Assembly (NCBI GenBank): GCA_017613135.1
Contig: JAGAEN010000008.1
Span: 1-51,490 of the forward strand
Origin: Candidatus Saccharimonadota bacterium
GTDB lineage: Bacteria > Patescibacteriota > Saccharimonadia > Saccharimonadales > Saccharimonadaceae
Length of the DNA: 51,490 nucleotides
Direction of reading: 5' to 3'
Shown: piece by piece, positions 18,200 through 51,490 of the stretch
Numbering within the stretch: position 1 is the stretch's first letter
Layout: the number at the start of each line of letters is the position of its first letter
The notes under the pieces: model-generated
Databases searched by the model: none
Told to the model about the DNA's origin: nothing
Seen by the model: only the letters and a program-made list of their open reading frames with translations
Translations under genes and position numbers: made by a program

Positions 18200-18224
18200 C
18201 TACTGCGATATACAGCGGACGCTA
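18200..18224 (-). repeat. 25-bp 3' end shared by the two FISUMP genes, copy 1
   Basis: Identical to 49759-49783. It includes the TAG stop and encodes the final residues of both proteins; lower similarity continues for about 150 bp. Confidence 0.85.
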
Positions 18225-21200
18225 AACCCGAAGTACTTACTGTTGCTACCCGTACCAGGGCGGACGCTGCTACTGCCGAGGTTCAGGTAATACGCGCTGA
18301 TGCTACCGTCCGCCGAAGACGACCAATAGTACCCGTAGCTGCCACGACTGCTCGCCGACGAGCCACTCCAGTAGCCGGAGTAGATAAAGTTATTTGGGAA
18401 GCCGCGCCATTTAGAAGACTGGGTTATACCAGCAGTACTAGATTGGTTTTGACCATTACCACCCAATTTGCGATCTAAGTAGGAGAAGCTACCTACGCGA
18501 TTAGCGGCATCGGCTAAACCGTTTTCTAATGTACCGGTAGAAGTGACACCTAATGGGAGATGCCAACCGGCAGGGCAGATGGAAGTACCAGCTGAATCAG
18601 AGCCTGCGGTGCCGGTACGGTTGTAGTATGTATATTGTATGGTGCTTGCCATTGCGGCTGCCCAGGAGTAGTAGTTGCCATATGAATACCAAGAGACTTG
18701 GTTATTATTTTGATTATAACTATCAAATAGACTGATACTTGAAGCATTGACACCAGTACCGCCCATAGCAGTAGCGTTGGTGTTATTGGTGTTAAGTTGT
18801 GGGAGAGTGTAAGCATTTAAGCCGGTATAAAGGTTATTACTAGTGTTGCTATGCCAGTTCGTGTCTACACTACTTGGAAGCCCAGTGAAGACTCCGCCAA
18901 AGGCACCATTGTTGCTTTGGGTGTTGGAAGTGGTAATAGTAGCGTCATTGTCTAGTCTTAAGTTTTCAATCATCCACCATTTACCATCTGCTAGTTTGGC
19001 TACGGCATATACATCATTATCACGTGTATCTTCTAGTGCTATTACTGTACCAATTGGAGCAGAGTTATATGCAGCATAATTAGTAGCATTAAAGGTTTGC
19101 ATTGTCACATTGGTTTCTTTAGCTACCCAGACTGCGTAAAGAGTTATATGGTGTCTATTATCCGCATATTGGTTTATAAAGGAAGAAGATACAGTAATTG
19201 TCTCATTTGGACCATAGATTGGGTCAGCACCACCTACAGTGGCAGTAGGGCTTGGGGACCATCCAGCAAATCCATAACCAGTTTTTTCATAGTTTGGTGC
19301 AATGAGATCAACGGTGTCGCCACTGTTAAGCTCAGTATGTCTAGCGTACATGGAACCATCCGTAGCACCATTACCATCATATAATATACTATAGAAGTTT
19401 TCAATCACACAGCGCACGGAGCGCCCATAATATTTATAGGTATTAGCATCAATGATAACCATAGAACTATCAATAGCTAAATTTTTCGAGTCTCTATTTG
19501 CGTATGCTGAAGATGACCAATAATCGCCAGATCTACCCCGACTGCTCCCATATTCTCCAGAATAAACGAAATTGTTTGGGAACATCCGCCATTCTCTGGA
19601 ACCTTGTGCTGAAGTGTTTTTTCCCATCTGTTGATTCAAGTAGTAGAACGCGCCGCTAGTGTTTTGACTTGCACCTTTTGGCAACTTCCAACCTGCCGGG
19701 CAAAGGGAGGTTTGTGCGGCGTCGGAGTGGTATAATTCTCGACTATCATTAGCATAGTAATAATTGATATAGTGCTTCGTACTAGCAATAGCAGCTGCCC
19801 AAGTGTAATAATTGCCGTAAGAATAGACGTAGTTGTTGTAATCAGTGTGGGCATAAGCCGAAGTGACGTTTTGGCTAGGTCCAGTCGGGGTGGTGGCAGA
19901 AGAAGTATTATTATTCCAAGTAGTGTTGGCATTATTGTAGCGGGGGAAGAGATAGTTGAGATAGCTAGAATAACTACTATCAATGGTAAGTTGGTATTTG
20001 CCAGTTACACCACTAGCGGTAGTGTAGAGAGAGTTTGCAGTGTTTACATTACTGAAATTGCTGGTTTCTGGATTAGCAAGACCGTGGAACACCCCGCCAT
20101 AACCTTGCGATAGACTCTCATTAGTGACAGAACTATCAATGGTGTTTTGGCCTACGGTACCAGCGGTGTCTAGCCTTAGGTTTTCTATCATCCAGCAGTT
20201 GCCATCGGCAAGTTTGGCCACAGCATAGACTTTGCTGTCACGCTGGTCAGTGAGGGCGGTGATGGTGTTCTTAGCCACTGTGAGAGTACCAGTGGCAGAG
20301 TTGTAGGTGGTGGCAGTCATAGCGGAACAACCAGTCCAACCTTGGAGATAGACTGGGTCATTACTGCCATCTTTTTCGGCTGGAGCCCAGACGGCGTAGA
20401 GGGTAGTGATTGGTGAGCCACTATAGGCAGGGGCAGTGATAACTTCATTCGGGCCCCAAATCTTTGGGTCGTTGGTATTATCATTGTCAGTGAGATGGGC
20501 CCAGGCGCTAGCATCTGTACTCCAACCGACGAAACCATAGCCGTCACGCTTAAAGTTAGAAGCAAAGAGATCAAAGGTGTCGCCTTCACCAACATTTGTA
20601 TGATTGACTGGTTTAATACCAGTGGTAGCATTAGCAACACCCATACCGTTAGGGTTATCGGCACCATTGCCATCATATTGGACAGTGTAGATTGGGACCC
20701 AGTGGGCATAGAGAGTGGCACCATCACCAGCACCAGCACCAGTAACATTATAAGTACTACTTGCTGGGTAAGCAGCACCAGTACCATCAGCATTAGTGGT
20801 CCATTCTTTAATCTTCCAGCCGGTGAGGGAGAATGTGCTACTGGAGCCGAGAGTGCCAGAACCATTACCAGAAGCATCTAGATTGATACCTAAAGTAGTA
20901 GTATTATTTGAAGCATTATTAGTGCAATTACTATCTGAAGATGCCCAAGATTTACAGTTATTGGTATATGTAATAGTGTATTGTGGAAGCCACTGGGCGT
21001 AGAGAGTGACGGTGCTATCTGGAGCGAGGTTGAGGTTAGAAAGTGGTGCATTTGCTGCAATAGCAATACCAGAGCCGTCTGGCACAGTGTTCCAACCATT
21101 AAACCACCAACCTGTCCTAGTGAAATCATTTGCTCTGGACATAGCAGAGTTAATTTCCACATTCTCTTGGGTGGCAGTAGCACCAGTGGCTGGATATTCG

Positions 21201-23008
21201 GTGGTGCCATTACCATTATAGTTTACCGTAGTAGTACCTTGACTAGCAACACATCTAATCATCGCACCATAATATTTATAATAAGTTGTGGTACTACTAT
21301 AAAGACCACTACTGTACACATAAGTCCAGTAAGCATAGGTAGAACTACTATTCCTGGATGTCCAGTAATAACCGTAGCTAGTCTCACTAGTAAAGTAACT
21401 AGCACCACTTCTATAGCCACCATAAGTAAAGTTGTTTGGAGAAGCAAAAGCAGTATTTGCACTAGTAATTGAGCCTTTGGTCCTGAGATTTAGGTATTGG
21501 GATTCAGTAGGGAGATCCCAGTTCTTCGGGCAGATGGATGTAGTAACATAAACACTACCTTTACTATATGTATTGATATCTGCCGTGGCCGCAGCATAAG
21601 TATAGTAAGAAGCTACACTATCGTTATAAGTAACGCCATTAACTGTGTGGCTAGCGATGGTATGATTGTTTAGATTATTTGGAGTGTTGATATTAGTATT
21701 ATTATTGGTTGTGGAATAATTAGATGAAGAGGCTGGGAGGGTGAAGTCAGTAGTGATATCTGTGTCTTCTGGCGTAAGAGTAATACTACCGTTGCTTTTA
21801 CCTAGATTTAAGTTGGTAGTCATCCAGCAAAGACCATCGGCGAGTTTGGCAACAGTGTAACTTCTAGTAGTACCATCGCGATTGTCTGTTAAGGTAGCAG
21901 TGTCGTTGATAGATGAGTTATAGCAAGCCATTGGGGACATGTCTTGCATCTTCTTGCCATTTAACTTAGCGAGGTTTGGTTGCCACCAAGTAGCGTATAA
22001 GTCTACAATGTTTACTGTGGTTTGATCTATGCCATAAGCTGCTCCTGGTTGGTAGAGAGTACCACCAGCAGAAGTACAATCTTGGTCGTCTGGATAGTTA
22101 GTATCAGCTATTGGTTGGACATTGCACCAACCTTTTAGTTCATAGCCAGAACGAGTAGGCTTGGTGGTGCTTAGATTGATGGATGTAATATCATTTGCGG
22201 CATTGCCAGTCTGTGGGTTAGGGCTTGGCATATTGGTGGTGTTAGCACCATCAGCACCATCATTGGCGTGGTAGGTAATGCTATAGTTAATGGGATTACC
22301 TATAGCGATAATGGTGAAGGCGTGCTCATAAGTACCAGTAGGAAGAGTACTATCTACTCTAGCACCGAGAGTAATGCTATAAGAATCTGAAGCATCAGTG
22401 CAAGGTGAGGTGCCATTAGCACAGCTAGTAGTATTTAGTATAGTAGCAGCATTATAGTCTGGAGCTGCTAGGTAGTTGGTATTATCACTAGAGTTTAGTT
22501 TGCTTGGTTTATAGCCCCACATATTATTGTATTGGGTGTTAGAAGCGTTGGAGAAGACTGATTCTGATACAGAGCCAGAAATACTGCTGATGTATTTAGT
22601 GCTGTCTTCCGTATTAACTAGTCTAGAAGCATTGGCTACTTCTGTAGCATTACTTGGATTTACTACTTTAGACTTAATGCTCAGTGTATAGCCGGTGACA
22701 TTATTCGTTGACACTGTAAAATTAGCTGGGGTAGAGGAAGAGAATGTACCAGCAGAGGATAAAGGAGTAAGGTTTAGGGCGATGGTGTCATTTGAAAGAG
22801 TAAGATTAAGTGAGGTAGTGCTAGGATTGGCTGTACCAGGTGTGGCTTCTACATTGGTCCATTTGATTTGGATAGGAAAAAGAATAGAAAAGACAAGCAC
22901 ACCAAGAAGAGTAGAAGAGACAGAGCCAAGAAGACGGAGCTTCTTGCTGCGAGAGATATACTTAGAACAAGCGTACCTGCCAAAATAGTGTTTGTGTATG
23001 ACTTGCAT
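18200..23008 (-). CDS. Giant secreted FISUMP / InlB-repeat surface protein
   Basis: 1602 residues. A basic N-terminus and membrane segment (about 26-48) form a signal peptide or anchor. A Ser/Thr/Asn-rich beta domain (about 55-240) follows. Then InlB-B/Listeria-Bacteroides repeats (YNGNGT, YDGNGA and GYGFAGWS phrases; about five, at 243-325, 592-665, 672-745, 775-850, 1203-1280) alternate with three FISUMP domains, whose AKLADGxCWMxxNL motif lies near 386, 930 and 1336, each ending in an RC(V/I) strand. The third domain reads GKWWMIENL, so the usual Cys before WM is lost. There is no LPXTG or obvious C-terminal anchor. It is probably a long adhesin; ligand unknown. It starts 6 nt after a -10 box and uses a different codon style (AAT, ACT, AGT rich) from its neighbours. 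Confidence 0.85.
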   Translation of the reverse strand: MQVIHKHYFGRYACSKYISRSKKLRLLGSVSSTLLGVLVFSILFPIQIKWTNVEATPGTANPSTTSLNLTLSNDTIALNLTPLSSAGTFSSSTPANFTVSTNNVTGYTLSIKSKVVNPSNATEVANASRLVNTEDSTKYISSISGSVSESVFSNASNTQYNNMWGYKPSKLNSSDNTNYLAAPDYNAATILNTTSCANGTSPCTDASDSYSITLGARVDSTLPTGTYEHAFTIIAIGNPINYSITYHANDGADGANTTNMPSPNPQTGNAANDITSINLSTTKPTRSGYELKGWCNVQPIADTNYPDDQDCTSAGGTLYQPGAAYGIDQTTVNIVDLYATWWQPNLAKLNGKKMQDMSPMACYNSSINDTATLTDNRDGTTRSYTVAKLADGLCWMTTNLNLGKSNGSITLTPEDTDITTDFTLPASSSNYSTTNNNTNINTPNNLNNHTIASHTVNGVTYNDSVASYYTYAAATADINTYSKGSVYVTTSICPKNWDLPTESQYLNLRTKGSITSANTAFASPNNFTYGGYRSGASYFTSETSYGYYWTSRNSSSTYAYWTYVYSSGLYSSTTTYYKYYGAMIRCVASQGTTTVNYNGNGTTEYPATGATATQENVEINSAMSRANDFTRTGWWFNGWNTVPDGSGIAIAANAPLSNLNLAPDSTVTLYAQWLPQYTITYTNNCKSWASSDSNCTNNASNNTTTLGINLDASGNGSGTLGSSSTFSLTGWKIKEWTTNADGTGAAYPASSTYNVTGAGAGDGATLYAHWVPIYTVQYDGNGADNPNGMGVANATTGIKPVNHTNVGEGDTFDLFASNFKRDGYGFVGWSTDASAWAHLTDNDNTNDPKIWGPNEVITAPAYSGSPITTLYAVWAPAEKDGSNDPVYLQGWTGCSAMTATTYNSATGTLTVAKNTITALTDQRDSKVYAVAKLADGNCWMIENLRLDTAGTVGQNTIDSSVTNESLSQGYGGVFHGLANPETSNFSNVNTANSLYTTASGVTGKYQLTIDSSYSSYLNYLFPRYNNANTTWNNNTSSATTPTGPSQNVTSAYAHTDYNNYVYSYGNYYTWAAAIASTKHYINYYYANDSRELYHSDAAQTSLCPAGWKLPKGASQNTSGAFYYLNQQMGKNTSAQGSREWRMFPNNFVYSGEYGSSRGRSGDYWSSSAYANRDSKNLAIDSSMVIIDANTYKYYGRSVRCVIENFYSILYDGNGATDGSMYARHTELNSGDTVDLIAPNYEKTGYGFAGWSPSPTATVGGADPIYGPNETITVSSSFINQYADNRHHITLYAVWVAKETNVTMQTFNATNYAAYNSAPIGTVIALEDTRDNDVYAVAKLADGKWWMIENLRLDNDATITTSNTQSNNGAFGGVFTGLPSSVDTNWHSNTSNNLYTGLNAYTLPQLNTNNTNATAMGGTGVNASSISLFDSYNQNNNQVSWYSYGNYYSWAAAMASTIQYTYYNRTGTAGSDSAGTSICPAGWHLPLGVTSTGTLENGLADAANRVGSFSYLDRKLGGNGQNQSSTAGITQSSKWRGFPNNFIYSGYWSGSSASSRGSYGYYWSSSADGSISAYYLNLGSSSVRPGTGSNSKYFGFSVRCISQ

Positions 23009-23546: not shown

Positions 23547-25670
23547 CTATTCAAACACCGGCACATCCGGCGGAAAAGGGTCAAAATCCTCATTTGAAAA
23601 ATCCTCATCACTAAAATCAGTAAACCCATCCCCATCTTCATCTCGATATCCCGACGACCCGTACGGGTTGTACCCAATCTCCGTCAAAAATCTCGACGGC
23701 ATTTCGTAATTTCGGCTCCCATACGAAAATCTCGACGCCGCATACGTGAGAAATAGCCTTCGCATCGCTCGCGTCATCCCCACATACGCTAGGCGCCTCT
23801 CTTCTTCTAATCCCGCCTCGTCATCGCACGCTCTCGCACTCGGAAATAGCCCTTCTTCCATTCCCACCATAAATACCACAGGGAACTCTAGCCCCTTCGC
23901 CGCATGCATCGTCATCAAAGTCACCGCATTCTGCCCCGACGTCTCATCCGCCGACGACATTAGCGAAGCATCCGCCAAAAACTCTTCCAAACTATCGTAC
24001 TGCGCCGCATTACCGACCAGCACTTCTAGGTTCTTCATTCTTTCTTCTGAACTCGGTGTACCATCATCCGTTAGTCGCCGAAAGTCAAAATACTCTACCA
24101 CATTTTTTACCACTTCCCCTGTATTTTGCGGGATATTTGTCTCATTTACCATCTTTTTCAAAAAATCCACCAACTTTAGCAGCCCATTTCGCGCCTTCGC
24201 CACCGTCAAAACTTCTGAGAAATCTGGCTCGAGCAAAGGCTTATCACCTTCCACCGCGTCCACCGCCATCAAAAGCTTCTTCAAAGACACTTCCCCGATT
24301 CCCGACAGCACGTTTTTCACTACTCGCTCAAGCGATACCTTGTCTCGCTGATTCACCATCAACTTCAAAATCGCTAGCACGTCCTTTACTTCCTTCCGGT
24401 CATAAAATCTCACCCCGCCCACAATTTTGTACGGAATATGCAGATTAATAAACGCCTTCTCAAAAGTATACGATTGCGCATTCGTCCGATAAAGTACCGC
24501 AAAATCCCTATAATCCGGATAATCCTTCTTCATCCTAAGTATCGTCATCGCCACAAAACTCGCCTCCGCTTCCTCGTCACGCAAAGATTCAATATCCACC
24601 GGCTCGCCCTTGCCAATCTCCGTAAATAACGTCTTCTCCGTCCGAGTCTTGTTTTGCGAAATCACTTTTTGCGACGCCGCCAAAATATTTCCCGTCGAGC
24701 GATAGTTTTGCTCCAACTTAATCACCTTCGCCCCCGGAAAATCCCGCTCAAAATGCAAAATGTTCGTAAAATCTGCCCCCCGCCACGAATAAATCGACTG
24801 CCAATCGTCCCCCACCACGCAAATATTTTTCTCCGACCCGACCAAAAGCTTCACCAAATGATACTGAATAATATTCGTATCCTGATACTCATCAATCAAA
24901 ATATATTGAAACCTCTCTTGCCACTTTTTCCGAACCTCCGGATTATTACTAAATAATTCCAAAGTTTTTAAGAGCAAGTCATCAAAATCTAGCGCCCCAG
25001 CCTTTTTCTTCTCCGCCTCATAGCCCTCAAAAATCTTTGCTATATCCCGCTGATTTGGATATAGCGCCGAGGCCATATATTCTTCCGGCCCATTACCCTG
25101 ATTTTTTTCGCTCGATATAATCGACTGTACCGACTTCGGCTTTAAAGCTTTATTATCCGAAATACCAAGACTCTTCATCACTCGCCGAATCAAAGAAATC
25201 TGATCATCCATATCATAAATCACAAAATCTCTTGTGAGATTCGCCGCCTCCGCCTCCTGACGAAGAATCTTCACGCACACCCCGTGAAACGTCCCCATCT
25301 ATGGCATAAACGAGCGCGGGGGGAGGAGAGGCTGATGAGATTGGACATTGATGTCCAAATTCGGGGACTTCCGGAGCGCGGCAGCGCGAGGGTGAGCGCC
25401 GGCCGCCCGTGGCGACGGGCCGGCCGGACGCGGCCCCGAATTGGATATCAATGTCCACAACCTTTCTCGCATCTCATTCGCCGCCTTATTCGTAAACGTT
25501 ACCGCGAGAATATGCGAAGGCTGCACGCCGTGCGCGATTAGGTTCGCAATGCGATGCGTGAGAGTTTTGGTTTTCCCTGACCCCGCTCCCGCCAAAATCA
25601 GAAGCGGCCCCGACAAAGTTTCTACCGCCTCTTTTTGCGCCGGATTTAGTCTATCAAGTATCGGGTTCAT
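23547..25670 (-). pseudogene. pcrA: UvrD/PcrA helicase interrupted by one in-frame TAG after a palindromic insertion
   Basis: In total about 707 codons of a superfamily 1A helicase. The first part (25670-25299) has the Q-motif LNPAQKEAV, Walker A AGAGSGKT (27-34) and [15 protein letters not shown], then the insertion element (codons about 72-109), then ...PRSFMP followed by TAG at codon 124. The same frame continues at once with ATG (25298): MGTFHGVCVKIL, DEYQDTN, QSIYSWRGADF, YRSTGN, TMHAAKGLEFP and GMTRAM, all intact. A Trp codon (TGG) is common at the TAG position in relatives as I recall them, so one G-to-A change would explain it. Alternatives are a sequencing error, readthrough, or a split enzyme made by TAG-ATG reinitiation. 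The start overlaps the murA stop (TAATG). Confidence 0.85.
25343..25456 (+). repeat. In-frame palindromic insertion element, copy 3 (helicase gene)
   Basis: The core (25364-25436) is nearly identical to copy 1. Arms 25343-25366 and 25434-25456 pair over about 23 bp with few mismatches. It is antisense to the host gene; 114 nt, i.e. 38 codons. Confidence 0.9.
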
Positions 25671-27220
25671 TATATCCCCGTCAGTGGCGTAATGTCTGCC
25701 CCAAGATGTCGGAGTCTCGCCGCAAAATCTTGATATCCACGATTAATTGAATAAATATTACGAAGAATCGAAGTCCCCGGCGCCGCTAGCATCGCAATTA
25801 GCACTACTACCGCCGGGCGCAAAGCTTGTGGCGCCACCATTTCCGCCGGTCGCCAATTTGTTGGCCCTTCAATATACACCCGATGCGCATCAAGCAACTC
25901 CACCTTCGCATTTAGATTAGCAAGTTCTGTAATATACACCGCCCGATTTTCAAACACCCAGTCATGAATCAAAGTCCGCCCCTTCGCCACCGCCGCAATT
26001 ACCGAGAAAAACGGCAAATTATCGATATTCAAACCCGGAAACGGCATCGGATGAATTTTATCTACCGGCGCCACCAAATCAGACTTATGGACAGTGAGGT
26101 CCACCAACCTCGTTCTTTCATTTGCCGACAAATACTCCTCCGACTTATCAATCCGCGCATTCATTGATTTCAGTACCTCAAGTTCAATTTCAAGAAACTC
26201 AATCGGCGCTCGCCGAATCGTTATTTCCGATTTTGTCACTAAACCCGCCGCAATAAAACTCATCGCCTCAATCGGGTCTTCTGACACGGAATACTCCACA
26301 TCCTCATCTATACGCGAACAACCTCTCACCACCAAAGTCGTCGTACCAATTCCCGAAATCTTCACTCCCAACTTTTCCAAGAAAAAGCACACATCCTGCA
26401 CCATATAGTTTGGCGAAGCCCCCACAATCGTCGTCCGCCCAGGGGACAGTGCCGCTGCCATCAAAACATTCTCCGTCACTGTATCACCGCGCTCCGTTAA
26501 AACAATATATCTATCAGTATATTTATGGAGCGTCCCTTGATTTACTTTCACATTATAAAATCCACTTTCGCACACTGCGTCAACATTCAGCCCAAATGAT
26601 TTTAGCGCCTGAATATGTGGCTCTACCGTCCTTGTGCCGAGAGAACATCCCCCAGCATACGGTATTTTAAAACTCTCGTACCGATGAAGCAAAGGCCCGA
26701 GAAACATAATAATTGACCGCGTCCTTCGTGCCGCCTCTACGTCCATTTCTTCCAATTTCAATTCACGTGGTGATATAATTTCTAGGTCACGATGACGATT
26801 CTGCCAATGGCATTTTACGCCAATCGACTCTAAAACTTCAATGATTCTAAACACTTCCTCAATTCTCGCTACGCGGTGAAGAACCGTCTTGCCAGAATTT
26901 AAAAGCGCCGCACATAGTAGTCCCACCGCCGCATTTTTCGACGTGTTTATCGTGATTTCACCACTAAGCTCTTTCCCGCCCCGAATCCGAAAACTCTGCG
27001 ATACCGTATCATTTATAGAGAGAATTTGGTTCCCGAGAGCCTCTGACAGTTTTTTAATCATCGTGAGCGAAACATTCTGCCCGCCCTTTTCAATCCGGTG
27101 AATCGCCGATTGACTCGTCCCCACTTCACGCGCCAAATCACCCTGCGTCCAGCCTTTTTCTAGGCGCATTTGCTCAATCGCTTCACCAATTGCCTCCTGA
27201 TAAGTTTTCGTTTTTTTCAT
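25670..27220 (-). CDS. murA: MurA-type enolpyruvyl transferase with N-terminal HTH domain
   Basis: 516 residues. Residues about 8-70 form an XRE/Cro-type helix-turn-helix ([22 protein letters not shown] in outline). From about 78 onward it is UDP-GlcNAc 1-carboxyvinyltransferase: TSKNAAV with K95-N96, the catalytic loop YAGGC192[17 protein letters not shown] and the closing NRAVYITEL and HLGADI segments. MurA makes the first committed peptidoglycan precursor. The added HTH lengthens it by about 80 residues over the usual 420 and suggests the enzyme may bind DNA or sense the pathway itself. The ATG at 27220 is 6 nt after TATAAT. The helicase gene overlaps its stop. Confidence 0.93.
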
Positions 27221-35249: not shown

Positions 35250-35326
35250 GCGAATGTAGCTCAGTTGTTTAGAGCGCTTCCTTGCCAAGGAAGAGGTCGA
35301 GAGTTAGAGTCTCTTCATTCGCACCA
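35250..35326 (+). tRNA. tRNA-Gly (GCC) with U19-A56 elbow
   Basis: Acceptor GCGAATG pairs with CATTCGC. The anticodon loop TTGCCAA on stem CTTCC/GGAAG gives GCC, and CCA is encoded. The D-loop is AGTTGTTTA (position 19 is T, not G) and the T-loop is TTAGAGT (position 56 is A, not C). The two changes preserve a Watson-Crick tertiary pair. Confidence 0.93.
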
Positions 35327-49758: not shown

Positions 49759-49783
49759 CTACTGCGATATACAGCGGACGCTA
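49759..49783 (-). repeat. 25-bp 3' end shared by the two FISUMP genes, copy 2
   Basis: Identical to 18200-18224, including the TAG stop; flanking sequence downstream of the stop is different. Confidence 0.85.
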
Positions 49784-51490
49784 TACCCGTAGTACCTACT
49801 GCTGCTGCTAGTACCTGGGAAGACGAGGCTACTGCCCAAGAGCAGATAGTAAGCGTAGTATCTACGGTCCGCTGAGCTAGACCAGTAGTAGCCGTAGGAA
49901 CCGCGATTGTTGGCGGACGAGTCATAGAAGCCGCCGGAATAGACAAAGTTGTTAGGGAAGGTCCTAAATAGATTAGAATAATTTGAGCCATTATAATATG
50001 CATTTCCAATATTTGGCGTGTTCTCATAGGCTGTTGTACCTACTAGTGTATAACCTAGATTATAGAAGTCACGGTAGGTGGAAGGGTCATTTGTCACGTT
50101 TACACCGCTAGTGTCGCCCTCTGCGTAGGCCTGTCCACCTTGTGGAAGATGCCAACCTGCAGGACAAAGGTCGCCAGATACTGAATCGTCGTTGGTGTTA
50201 AAGCTACGAATACCATTGCCGGCAGTAGCAGAGTACCAGTTGTAATAGTTGCCATAACCATACCATTGCGCGGTAGCGGTATTGGTGTTGTAACCTGGGA
50301 TAAGGTCAGTATTTGAAGCATTCTTGCCACCGATATTAGTATTGTTGGTATTTAGCATAGTCTGATCGAGACAAGCAGCACCGTCACCTTTACACCAGGA
50401 ATCACTAGTAGAAGCAAGATGATTTGCGGTAGTACCATTAGCATAATCTATTTTGAGATTAACTGTTCCGTTAGTGTTTAGTGGGTTATGAGTATTAGAA
50501 GTAGAGATAGTAGCTTCGTTGTCTAGCCTGAGATTCTCTACCATCCAGCATTTACCATCTGCTAGTCTAGCTACTGTGTAGACATTGTTGTCACGGGTAT
50601 CAGTAAGAGCGGTCATGGAAGCGAGAGTAGCTCTAGTACCATCACTTGGAGCAGCGGTGAGCGAAGAGCATCCAGTCCAGCCTTGGTTATTGGTACCTTG
50701 GAAAGTACCAGTAGGGGCAATCCAGACTGGGTAGAGTATCATACCCTTTGTAGCAAGAGTGGTAGAAGGTACTGTGAGAGTTTCATTTGGACCGTAGATA
50801 GTACTAGCATTTGTGGCGGTGAAGTCTTTACTCCAACCAGCAAAGCCATAACCTTCACGTTTGTAGTTTGGTGCGATAAGGTTAATGGTGGTGGCGGAAG
50901 TGCCCACACTAATCTTTCCAGCAGTAGGTGAAGAAGAAATAGAGCCGAGTGAGTCCATTGAACCAACTATATCACTAGCGTTAGGCGCATAGCAGACATA
51001 GCCGGCTGGACAATCCGAAGCCTTAAGCGGAGCTACTGGTTTCCCAGCAGTAGATGGGTGAACTAGAGTGTATTTAACTTGTCCAATGTATGTTCCAGCA
51101 GGTTGAGTCTGTGAAATGTAGGCTCTATAGGTAGTAGTAAGGTTAGAACCAGAAGCAGATGAACCTATATCAGTAGAAGATGGGAAGTAAGCAACTTTAG
51201 TGTATTCTTCTGGTACTGCAGTATAGCCTGAGAAATCTGGGTCACCTGTTTGTCTATTAGTATCGTCAGTAGAACCAGCAATGATTGGAGTATAGCTATT
51301 GGTAGTTTTAGTGAGTTTCATCGCCCAAGAAGATGTACCAGTAGTGACAGTAGTTGCAGTAATGATATCGTGAGCAGAACCTAGCGTTGCATTAGTTAGT
51401 TTATTATTGCCATATTCATCATTAGTATAGCCAATAGCATATAGAGCATATCCGGTATTATCATTACAAGTCACTTTGACATTAGTAGTA
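49759..51490 (-). CDS. FISUMP surface protein, N-terminus beyond the window
   Basis: At least 577 residues; the frame is open through the right edge (…TTNVKVTCNDNTGYALYAIG), so a GTG at 51474 is not a real start. The visible part begins with a beta domain (KVTCNDNTGYALYAIGYTND), carries an InlB-B-type repeat (NYKREGYGFAGWS) around 210-265, and ends with one FISUMP domain (VARLADGKCWMVENLRLDNE, then DLCPAGWHLPQGG, TFPNNFVYSGGFYDSS and SVRCISQ). Its last 25 bp are identical to the end of the 1602-residue paralogue. The missing part should contain a signal peptide; the protein fragment at 1-204 has the right character for one. Confidence 0.85.
   Translation of the reverse strand, partial: TTNVKVTCNDNTGYALYAIGYTNDEYGNNKLTNATLGSAHDIITATTVTTGTSSWAMKLTKTTNSYTPIIAGSTDDTNRQTGDPDFSGYTAVPEEYTKVAYFPSSTDIGSSASGSNLTTTYRAYISQTQPAGTYIGQVKYTLVHPSTAGKPVAPLKASDCPAGYVCYAPNASDIVGSMDSLGSISSSPTAGKISVGTSATTINLIAPNYKREGYGFAGWSKDFTATNASTIYGPNETLTVPSTTLATKGMILYPVWIAPTGTFQGTNNQGWTGCSSLTAAPSDGTRATLASMTALTDTRDNNVYTVARLADGKCWMVENLRLDNEATISTSNTHNPLNTNGTVNLKIDYANGTTANHLASTSDSWCKGDGAACLDQTMLNTNNTNIGGKNASNTDLIPGYNTNTATAQWYGYGNYYNWYSATAGNGIRSFNTNDDSVSGDLCPAGWHLPQGGQAYAEGDTSGVNVTNDPSTYRDFYNLGYTLVGTTAYENTPNIGNAYYNGSNYSNLFRTFPNNFVYSGGFYDSSANNRGSYGYYWSSSADRRYYAYYLLLGSSLVFPGTSSSSRYYGYSVRCISQ

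Follow-up and report, generated by a model that had tools for sequence, protein, structure and literature searches.

The tertiary pair between G19 of the D-loop and C56 of the T-loop is nearly universal and is regarded as almost invariant in elongator tRNAs. With position 57 sandwiched between the pairs 18–55 and 19–56 (PMC7912444), a planar Watson–Crick pair is expected to matter more at 19–56 than the identity of the letters. Departures from G19–C56 are known. The methanosarcinal tRNA-Pyl, an archaeal suppressor with a reduced core, is functional with U19:A56, and introducing G19:C56 improved this tRNA in mammalian cells (PMC5758916). PRORP3 processes a G19A/C56U pre-tRNA-Gly nearly normally (PMC5039416). 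In the non-proteinogenic tRNAs of staphylococci, as described in PMC4052509, G18G19 is changed to UU or CU (Giannouli et al., cited therein), and A49–U65/A51–U63 replaces G49–U65/G51–C63, which yields a T-stem with weaker EF-Tu binding. In the searchable open-access literature, outside of which most subscription papers lie, we found no bacterial description of the variant analyzed here and no report of A19–U56 in a bacterial tRNA-Gly.

The tRNA-Gly(GCC) gene and its genomic context

We analyzed a stretch of 51,490 nucleotides (hereafter the window; contig C8) from a genome of the class Saccharimonadia (G000) which comprises 728,709 bases on 19 contigs and is 96.7% complete. The following features of the window are relevant here:

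35250–35326, plus strand: tRNA-Gly(GCC), 77 nt, with encoded CCA and discriminator A73 (ARAGORN and Rfam)
35268, plus strand: U19 in the D-loop AGTTGTTTA (35263–35271), with G18 kept at 35267
35306, plus strand: A56 in the T-loop TTAGAGT (35304–35310), read from the sequence
35299–35315, plus strand: T-arm with the pairs G49–U65, A50–U64, G51–C63, A52–U62, and G53–C61, read from the sequence; 49–65 and 51–63 are strong pairs with regard to EF-Tu, a significance taken from PMC4052509
8669–10012, plus strand: dimeric glycyl-tRNA synthetase (profile match NF003211, 568.5 bits), the expected charger of an A73-type tRNA

Both ARAGORN and Rfam call a complete tRNA on the plus strand (35250–35326 and 35250–35323, respectively), and its RF00005 score of 70.1 bits is the top tRNA score within the window. 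The four stems, the GCC anticodon and the CCA end are all present. The D-loop reads A14 G15 U16 U17 G18 U19 U20 U20a A21 and the T-loop U54 U55 A56 G57 A58 G59 U60, in which U54, U55, G57, and A58 are standard. The elbow pair is thus U19–A56 and not the canonical G19–C56. Each of the remaining six window tRNAs has GG in the D-loop and TTC in the T-loop. A preliminary description of the window had reported exactly this constellation, and its placement of the tRNA and of U19–A56 proved exact to the base, as did its account of the other six genes. The glycine identity elements G1–C72, C2–G71, G3–C70, C35, and C36 (PMC9976931) are all found. Hence the tRNA shares with a canonical bacterial elongator tRNA-Gly(GCC) the cloverleaf, the anticodon, the first three acceptor pairs, G18, U55, G57, A58, and the T-stem, and differs from it by U19–A56 and by A73 in place of U73. 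Compared with tRNA-Pyl, which has the same U19:A56 pair, the window tRNA is otherwise standard and its pair varies to A19–U56 among relatives. No convincing promoter or terminator could be called for the gene.

U73 is the bacterial discriminator of tRNA-Gly, and A73 is the archaeal and eukaryal type which suits the dimeric GlyRS. The window tRNA has A73 (position 35323), in agreement with the dimeric GlyRS encoded in the same window. A73 is found in the tRNA-Gly(GCC) of 30/30 relatives from the order or genus, and U73 in 30/30 genes from other classes of the phylum. All three tRNA-Gly of the genome have A73. Among 232,109 bacterial tRNA-Gly only 239 carry A73, and it has been argued that D-aminoacyl-tRNA deacylase (DTD), for which a tRNA-Gly with A73 would be a target, selects against this nucleotide (PMC6097841).

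The genome contains 47 tRNA genes, and the window gene is the only tRNA-Gly(GCC) among them; tRNA-Gly(UCC) and tRNA-Gly(CCC) are likewise encoded by one gene each. In 27 ORFs of the window GGU and GGC account for 481 of 850 glycine codons (57%). As the sole GCC isoacceptor, which would have to serve this codon demand, the tRNA appears to be needed for translation, and we infer from its single-copy status and the codon use that it receives glycine and decodes GGC and GGU on the ribosome.

Two further observations concern other genes of the window. A MurA homologue (residues 75–511) is apparently fused to an N-terminal HipB/Xre-type helix–turn–helix (residues 10–65; window 25670–27220, minus strand), and two large proteins on the minus strand have C-terminal FISUMP domains (18200–23008, 1602 aa; 49759–51474, 571 aa).

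Positions 19 and 56 in the class and in other phyla

To survey the class, 147 genomes were sampled evenly and searched with a D-loop-to-T-loop pattern which is blind to positions 19 and 56. The tRNA-Gly(GCC) gene was found in 139 of the 147 genomes. Read off the listed sequences, U19–A56 is present in 116 of them and A19–U56 in the other 23 (G405, G378, G384, G398, G189, G379, G382, G091, G077, G093, G086, G092, G073, G468, G465, G472, G460, G389, G380, G393, G397, G387, and G146), and G19–C56 or a mismatch occurs in 0/139. Relatives of the window genome gave the same picture. An extra match in G397 is due to chance and a second copy in G079 is degenerate. For the genomes in which this pattern gave no match, BLAST and a more permissive pattern did not reveal a hidden G19–C56 tRNA-Gly(GCC): in G026 the gene is truncated by the contig end, G423 and G078 have U–A, and in the others the gene was not found.

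The two positions covary perfectly. Across 92 distinct tRNA-Gly(GCC) sequences, 19 and 56 share 1.30 bits of mutual information, compared with 0–0.48 for slid partner columns, and standard pairs make up 98.9% of the cells. The lone non-standard case is a sequence with G18 misplaced by the automatic rule; such genes (G113, G359) have A18 and G55. In these two genes (G113:C9:663-710, G359:C4:192222-192269; D-loop AGCAGTA/AGTAGTA, T-loop TGCGA) the neighboring elbow pair 18–55 is altered on both sides. The preliminary description was right that 19 and 56 changed together with retention of pairing, which holds in more than 100 genomes and is always Watson–Crick. Of the two options that it offered, a lineage-wide covariation is borne out by the 139 genomes, the mutual information and the flips on the tree described below, and a non-standard cell-wall tRNA-Gly is not (see below). 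A normal GCC tRNA in sister genomes, which would have pointed to a one-off error, did not turn up.

Second copies of tRNA-Gly(GCC) were seen in a few genomes (G079:C4:162822-162871; G335:C2:3-52 and C5; G428:C12 and C17). One is degenerate and some sit at the ends of contigs, which might point to the gene as a site of duplication or integration. In the 99% complete genome G423 the gene (C14:35606-35681) has G58, and one of its acceptor pairs is broken (GCGGGTG/CACCCCC), so that it is perhaps decaying.

The orientation of the pair has changed many times. When the A–U/U–A label is mapped onto a tree of LigA from 31 members of the class, 10 changes are needed and eight of them are forced by starred branches, a number which is approximate as the tree conflicts with the taxonomy in places; the label does not cluster more than in shuffles. 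Three flips lie within single taxa: G468 in genus g1, G091 versus G433 in family f33, and G465, G472, and G460 versus G430, G299, G351, G326, and G471 in genus g46. Over the compared stretch the tRNA-Gly(GCC) of G468 differs from that of its genus only at 19 and 56, and the same is true for G465 and G351. In most of these genomes the tRNA gene and ligA lie on one contig, often 4–20 kb apart, suggesting that the same orthologous gene changed in place.

The swap is not limited to glycine tRNAs. In the window genome tRNA-Ala(UGC) (G000:C19:3441-3514; D-loop AGTTGATTA, T-loop TTTGAGT) and tRNA-Ala(CGC) (G000:C9:9976-10048; D-loop AGCTGATA, T-loop TTTAAGT) have A19–U56, and tRNA-Ala(GGC) has G19–C56. 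In some members of the genus Ala(UGC) has U19–A56, and the Ala(UGC) genes of G001 and G032 differ only at 19 and 56 over the compared stretch. A generic pattern which excludes G19 and C56 was run on the class. Among the matches listed are Gly(GCC), Ala(UGC), and Ala(CGC), some examples of Gly(CCC) and Gly(UCC), and a single Val(GAC), and these are invariably A–U or U–A. Ala(GGC) is A–U in G074, G067, G064, and G270; unlike Gly(GCC), the alanine tRNAs of the class mix G–C and A–U freely.

In Patescibacteria outside the class tRNA-Gly(GCC) mostly has G19–C56, with A19–U56 in families f82, f112, and f69. Elsewhere in the phylum the generic pattern found Gly(GCC), Ala(CGC) in f97, Thr(GGU) in f86 and f43, and His(GUG) in f82, all with A19–U56. 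The few chance matches outside tRNA genes were about as frequent as in a reversed control. The alanine, valine, threonine, and histidine cases rule out a restriction to glycine tRNAs.

For A–U, a restriction to Patescibacteria is ruled out as well. When 84,980 named genomes were scanned for tRNA-Gly(GCC) with A or U at 19 and 56, a GCTC D-stem, a variable loop of 5 nt and U73, at least 114 loci matched; of those listed, 113 were called as tRNA-Gly(GCC), and 113/113 have A19–U56. They belong to Clostridia, Bdellovibrionales, the Bacteroidota Labilibaculum and Flavobacteriales, Gammaproteobacteria (SAR86 among them), and Peregrinibacteria. A19–U56 is therefore a recurrent variant of tRNA-Gly(GCC) across phyla. 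The same isoacceptor has changed the same tertiary pair to an A/U Watson–Crick pair in these groups as in the window, and the differences are that only the A19–U56 orientation is seen there and that the discriminator is U73. U19–A56 was not found outside the class among the matches listed with GCTC D-stems, 5-nt variable loops, and U73.

Interpretation of the elbow swap

We suggest, with a probability of roughly 80%, that the window tRNA is an ordinary essential tRNA in which G19–C56 was swapped for another Watson–Crick pair in the ancestor of the class and later flipped, with selection acting on the geometry of the pair. The dimeric GlyRS would charge the tRNA, which would then decode GGC and GGU on the ribosome. 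The ancestral change probably led to A19–U56 first, by way of two transitions, and would have been followed by repeated flipping between A–U and U–A. Selection would keep the geometry of the 19–56 pair and not the identity of its bases; the planar Watson–Crick cap may stack on purine 57 and on elements of RNase P and rRNA.

An alternative explanation is that G19–C56 is actively excluded from the tRNA-Gly(GCC) of the class, and that the weak pair acts as an antideterminant against a factor that reads G19–C56 or as a tuning element that gives this strong-codon tRNA a looser elbow. An A–U pair returns to G–C by two transitions through G–U, whereas a flip between A–U and U–A takes two transversions through a mismatch. 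A neutral isosteric swap should therefore revert to G–C more easily than it flips. Nevertheless, 0/139 genes have reverted and at least 8–10 A–U/U–A changes have occurred, so that something beyond geometry may act. The independent rise of A–U in the tRNA-Gly(GCC) of several phyla and the concentration of the swap in the glycine and alanine tRNAs of the class also favor exclusion. On the other hand, the alanine tRNAs of the class shift freely between G–C and A–U, and the swapped threonine, histidine, and valine tRNAs have no evident common reader. It is a tentative proposal that tRNA-Gly(GCC) is selected not to carry G19–C56, in the class and independently in other phyla, and that the elbow serves as an antideterminant or as a dial of decoding strength for which A–U and U–A are interchangeable; we consider it possible, but less probable than not. 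The avoidance of pairing between a UUGG in the D-loop and the CCAA of the anticodon loop was also considered. It finds no support, as TTGGC and TTGCCAA occur together in other Patescibacteria.

Loss or change of Psi55 formation might have freed position 56, with A56 arising only where TruB is missing. In fact the TruB/PUS4 consensus for positions 53–61, GUUYRANYC, has a pyrimidine at 56 (PMC7912444), to which the A56 of the window tRNA does not conform, and outside the class tRNA-Gly(GCC) shows U56 and no A56 among the matches listed. However, TruB_N is present in 143 of 147 class genomes, those with U–A included, and three of the four genomes without a TruB match have A–U (G077, G189, G405), the fourth having no typable Gly(GCC) (G401). 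We reject loss of TruB as the cause of A56 on account of its retention, and an altered Psi55 formation is improbable.

Three side observations concern TruB or position 55. The TruB of the window genome (G000:C13:6088-6669) matches its profile in two parts, with additional residues separating profile positions 69 and 70, a split that recurs in several members of the genus. The tRNA-Gly(CCC) of this genome (G000:C7:83752-83823) has the T-loop TCCGACT, that is, C55 with G18 kept, and Psi55 is not possible in it. The same T-loop with C55 is found in the tRNA-Cys(GCA) of the Clostridia L122, L164, and L177.

The preliminary description had also drawn a parallel to the staphylococcal tRNA-Gly which feed cell-wall bridge synthesis and bind EF-Tu weakly. 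A non-proteinogenic tRNA supplying FemXAB-type enzymes would have altered D- and T-loops, as is the case here, and the lineage shares with staphylococci a tRNA-Gly altered at position 19 and FemAB-type genes, which occur in the window genome and in 46 of 57 class genomes; the ugd and LCP genes next to the tRNA are real envelope genes, but their adjacency alone carries no weight. This role is nevertheless very unlikely. According to PMC4052509, the staphylococcal tRNAs have UU or CU at 18–19, A49–U65/A51–U63 and are extra isoacceptors; the window tRNA keeps G18, with only 19 altered, as well as G49–U65 and G51–C63, and it is the product of the sole GCC gene. Among 30 relatives 51–63 is G–C in all, and 21 of these have A49–U65. 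Furthermore, the swap is retained in eight genomes of at least 90% completeness without a FemAB match (G270, G408, G089, G064, G309, G379, G392, and G396). The sole isoacceptor, the codon use, the T-stem, and the FemAB-negative genomes thus lead us to reject an exclusive role in the cell wall, and the parallel is not supported. The FemAB-family genes (PF02388) of the window genome lie at G000:C1:6952-8909 and C7:43615-43944, with at least two in tandem, in a reduced genome.

A pseudogene or an assembly error, which the near universality of G19–C56 could bring to mind, has a negligible probability and is refuted by conservation: every stem of this top-scoring tRNA of the window is intact, and more than 100 genomes assembled independently show the same two letters, which also speaks against chance and against a base-calling error.

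Implications of a swapped elbow in an essential tRNA

A whole bacterial class departs from the near-invariant G19–C56 in an essential tRNA, and the reading that we prefer is an ordinary tRNA with an isosteric elbow swap. The flips between A–U and U–A are natural double-mutant experiments in which the pairing is kept and the identity of the bases is free. Furthermore, tRNA-Gly(GCC) is singled out as a tRNA in which G–C does not come back. For annotation the finding is a warning: the loop sequence alone is no ground for calling such genes pseudogenes or cell-wall tRNAs.
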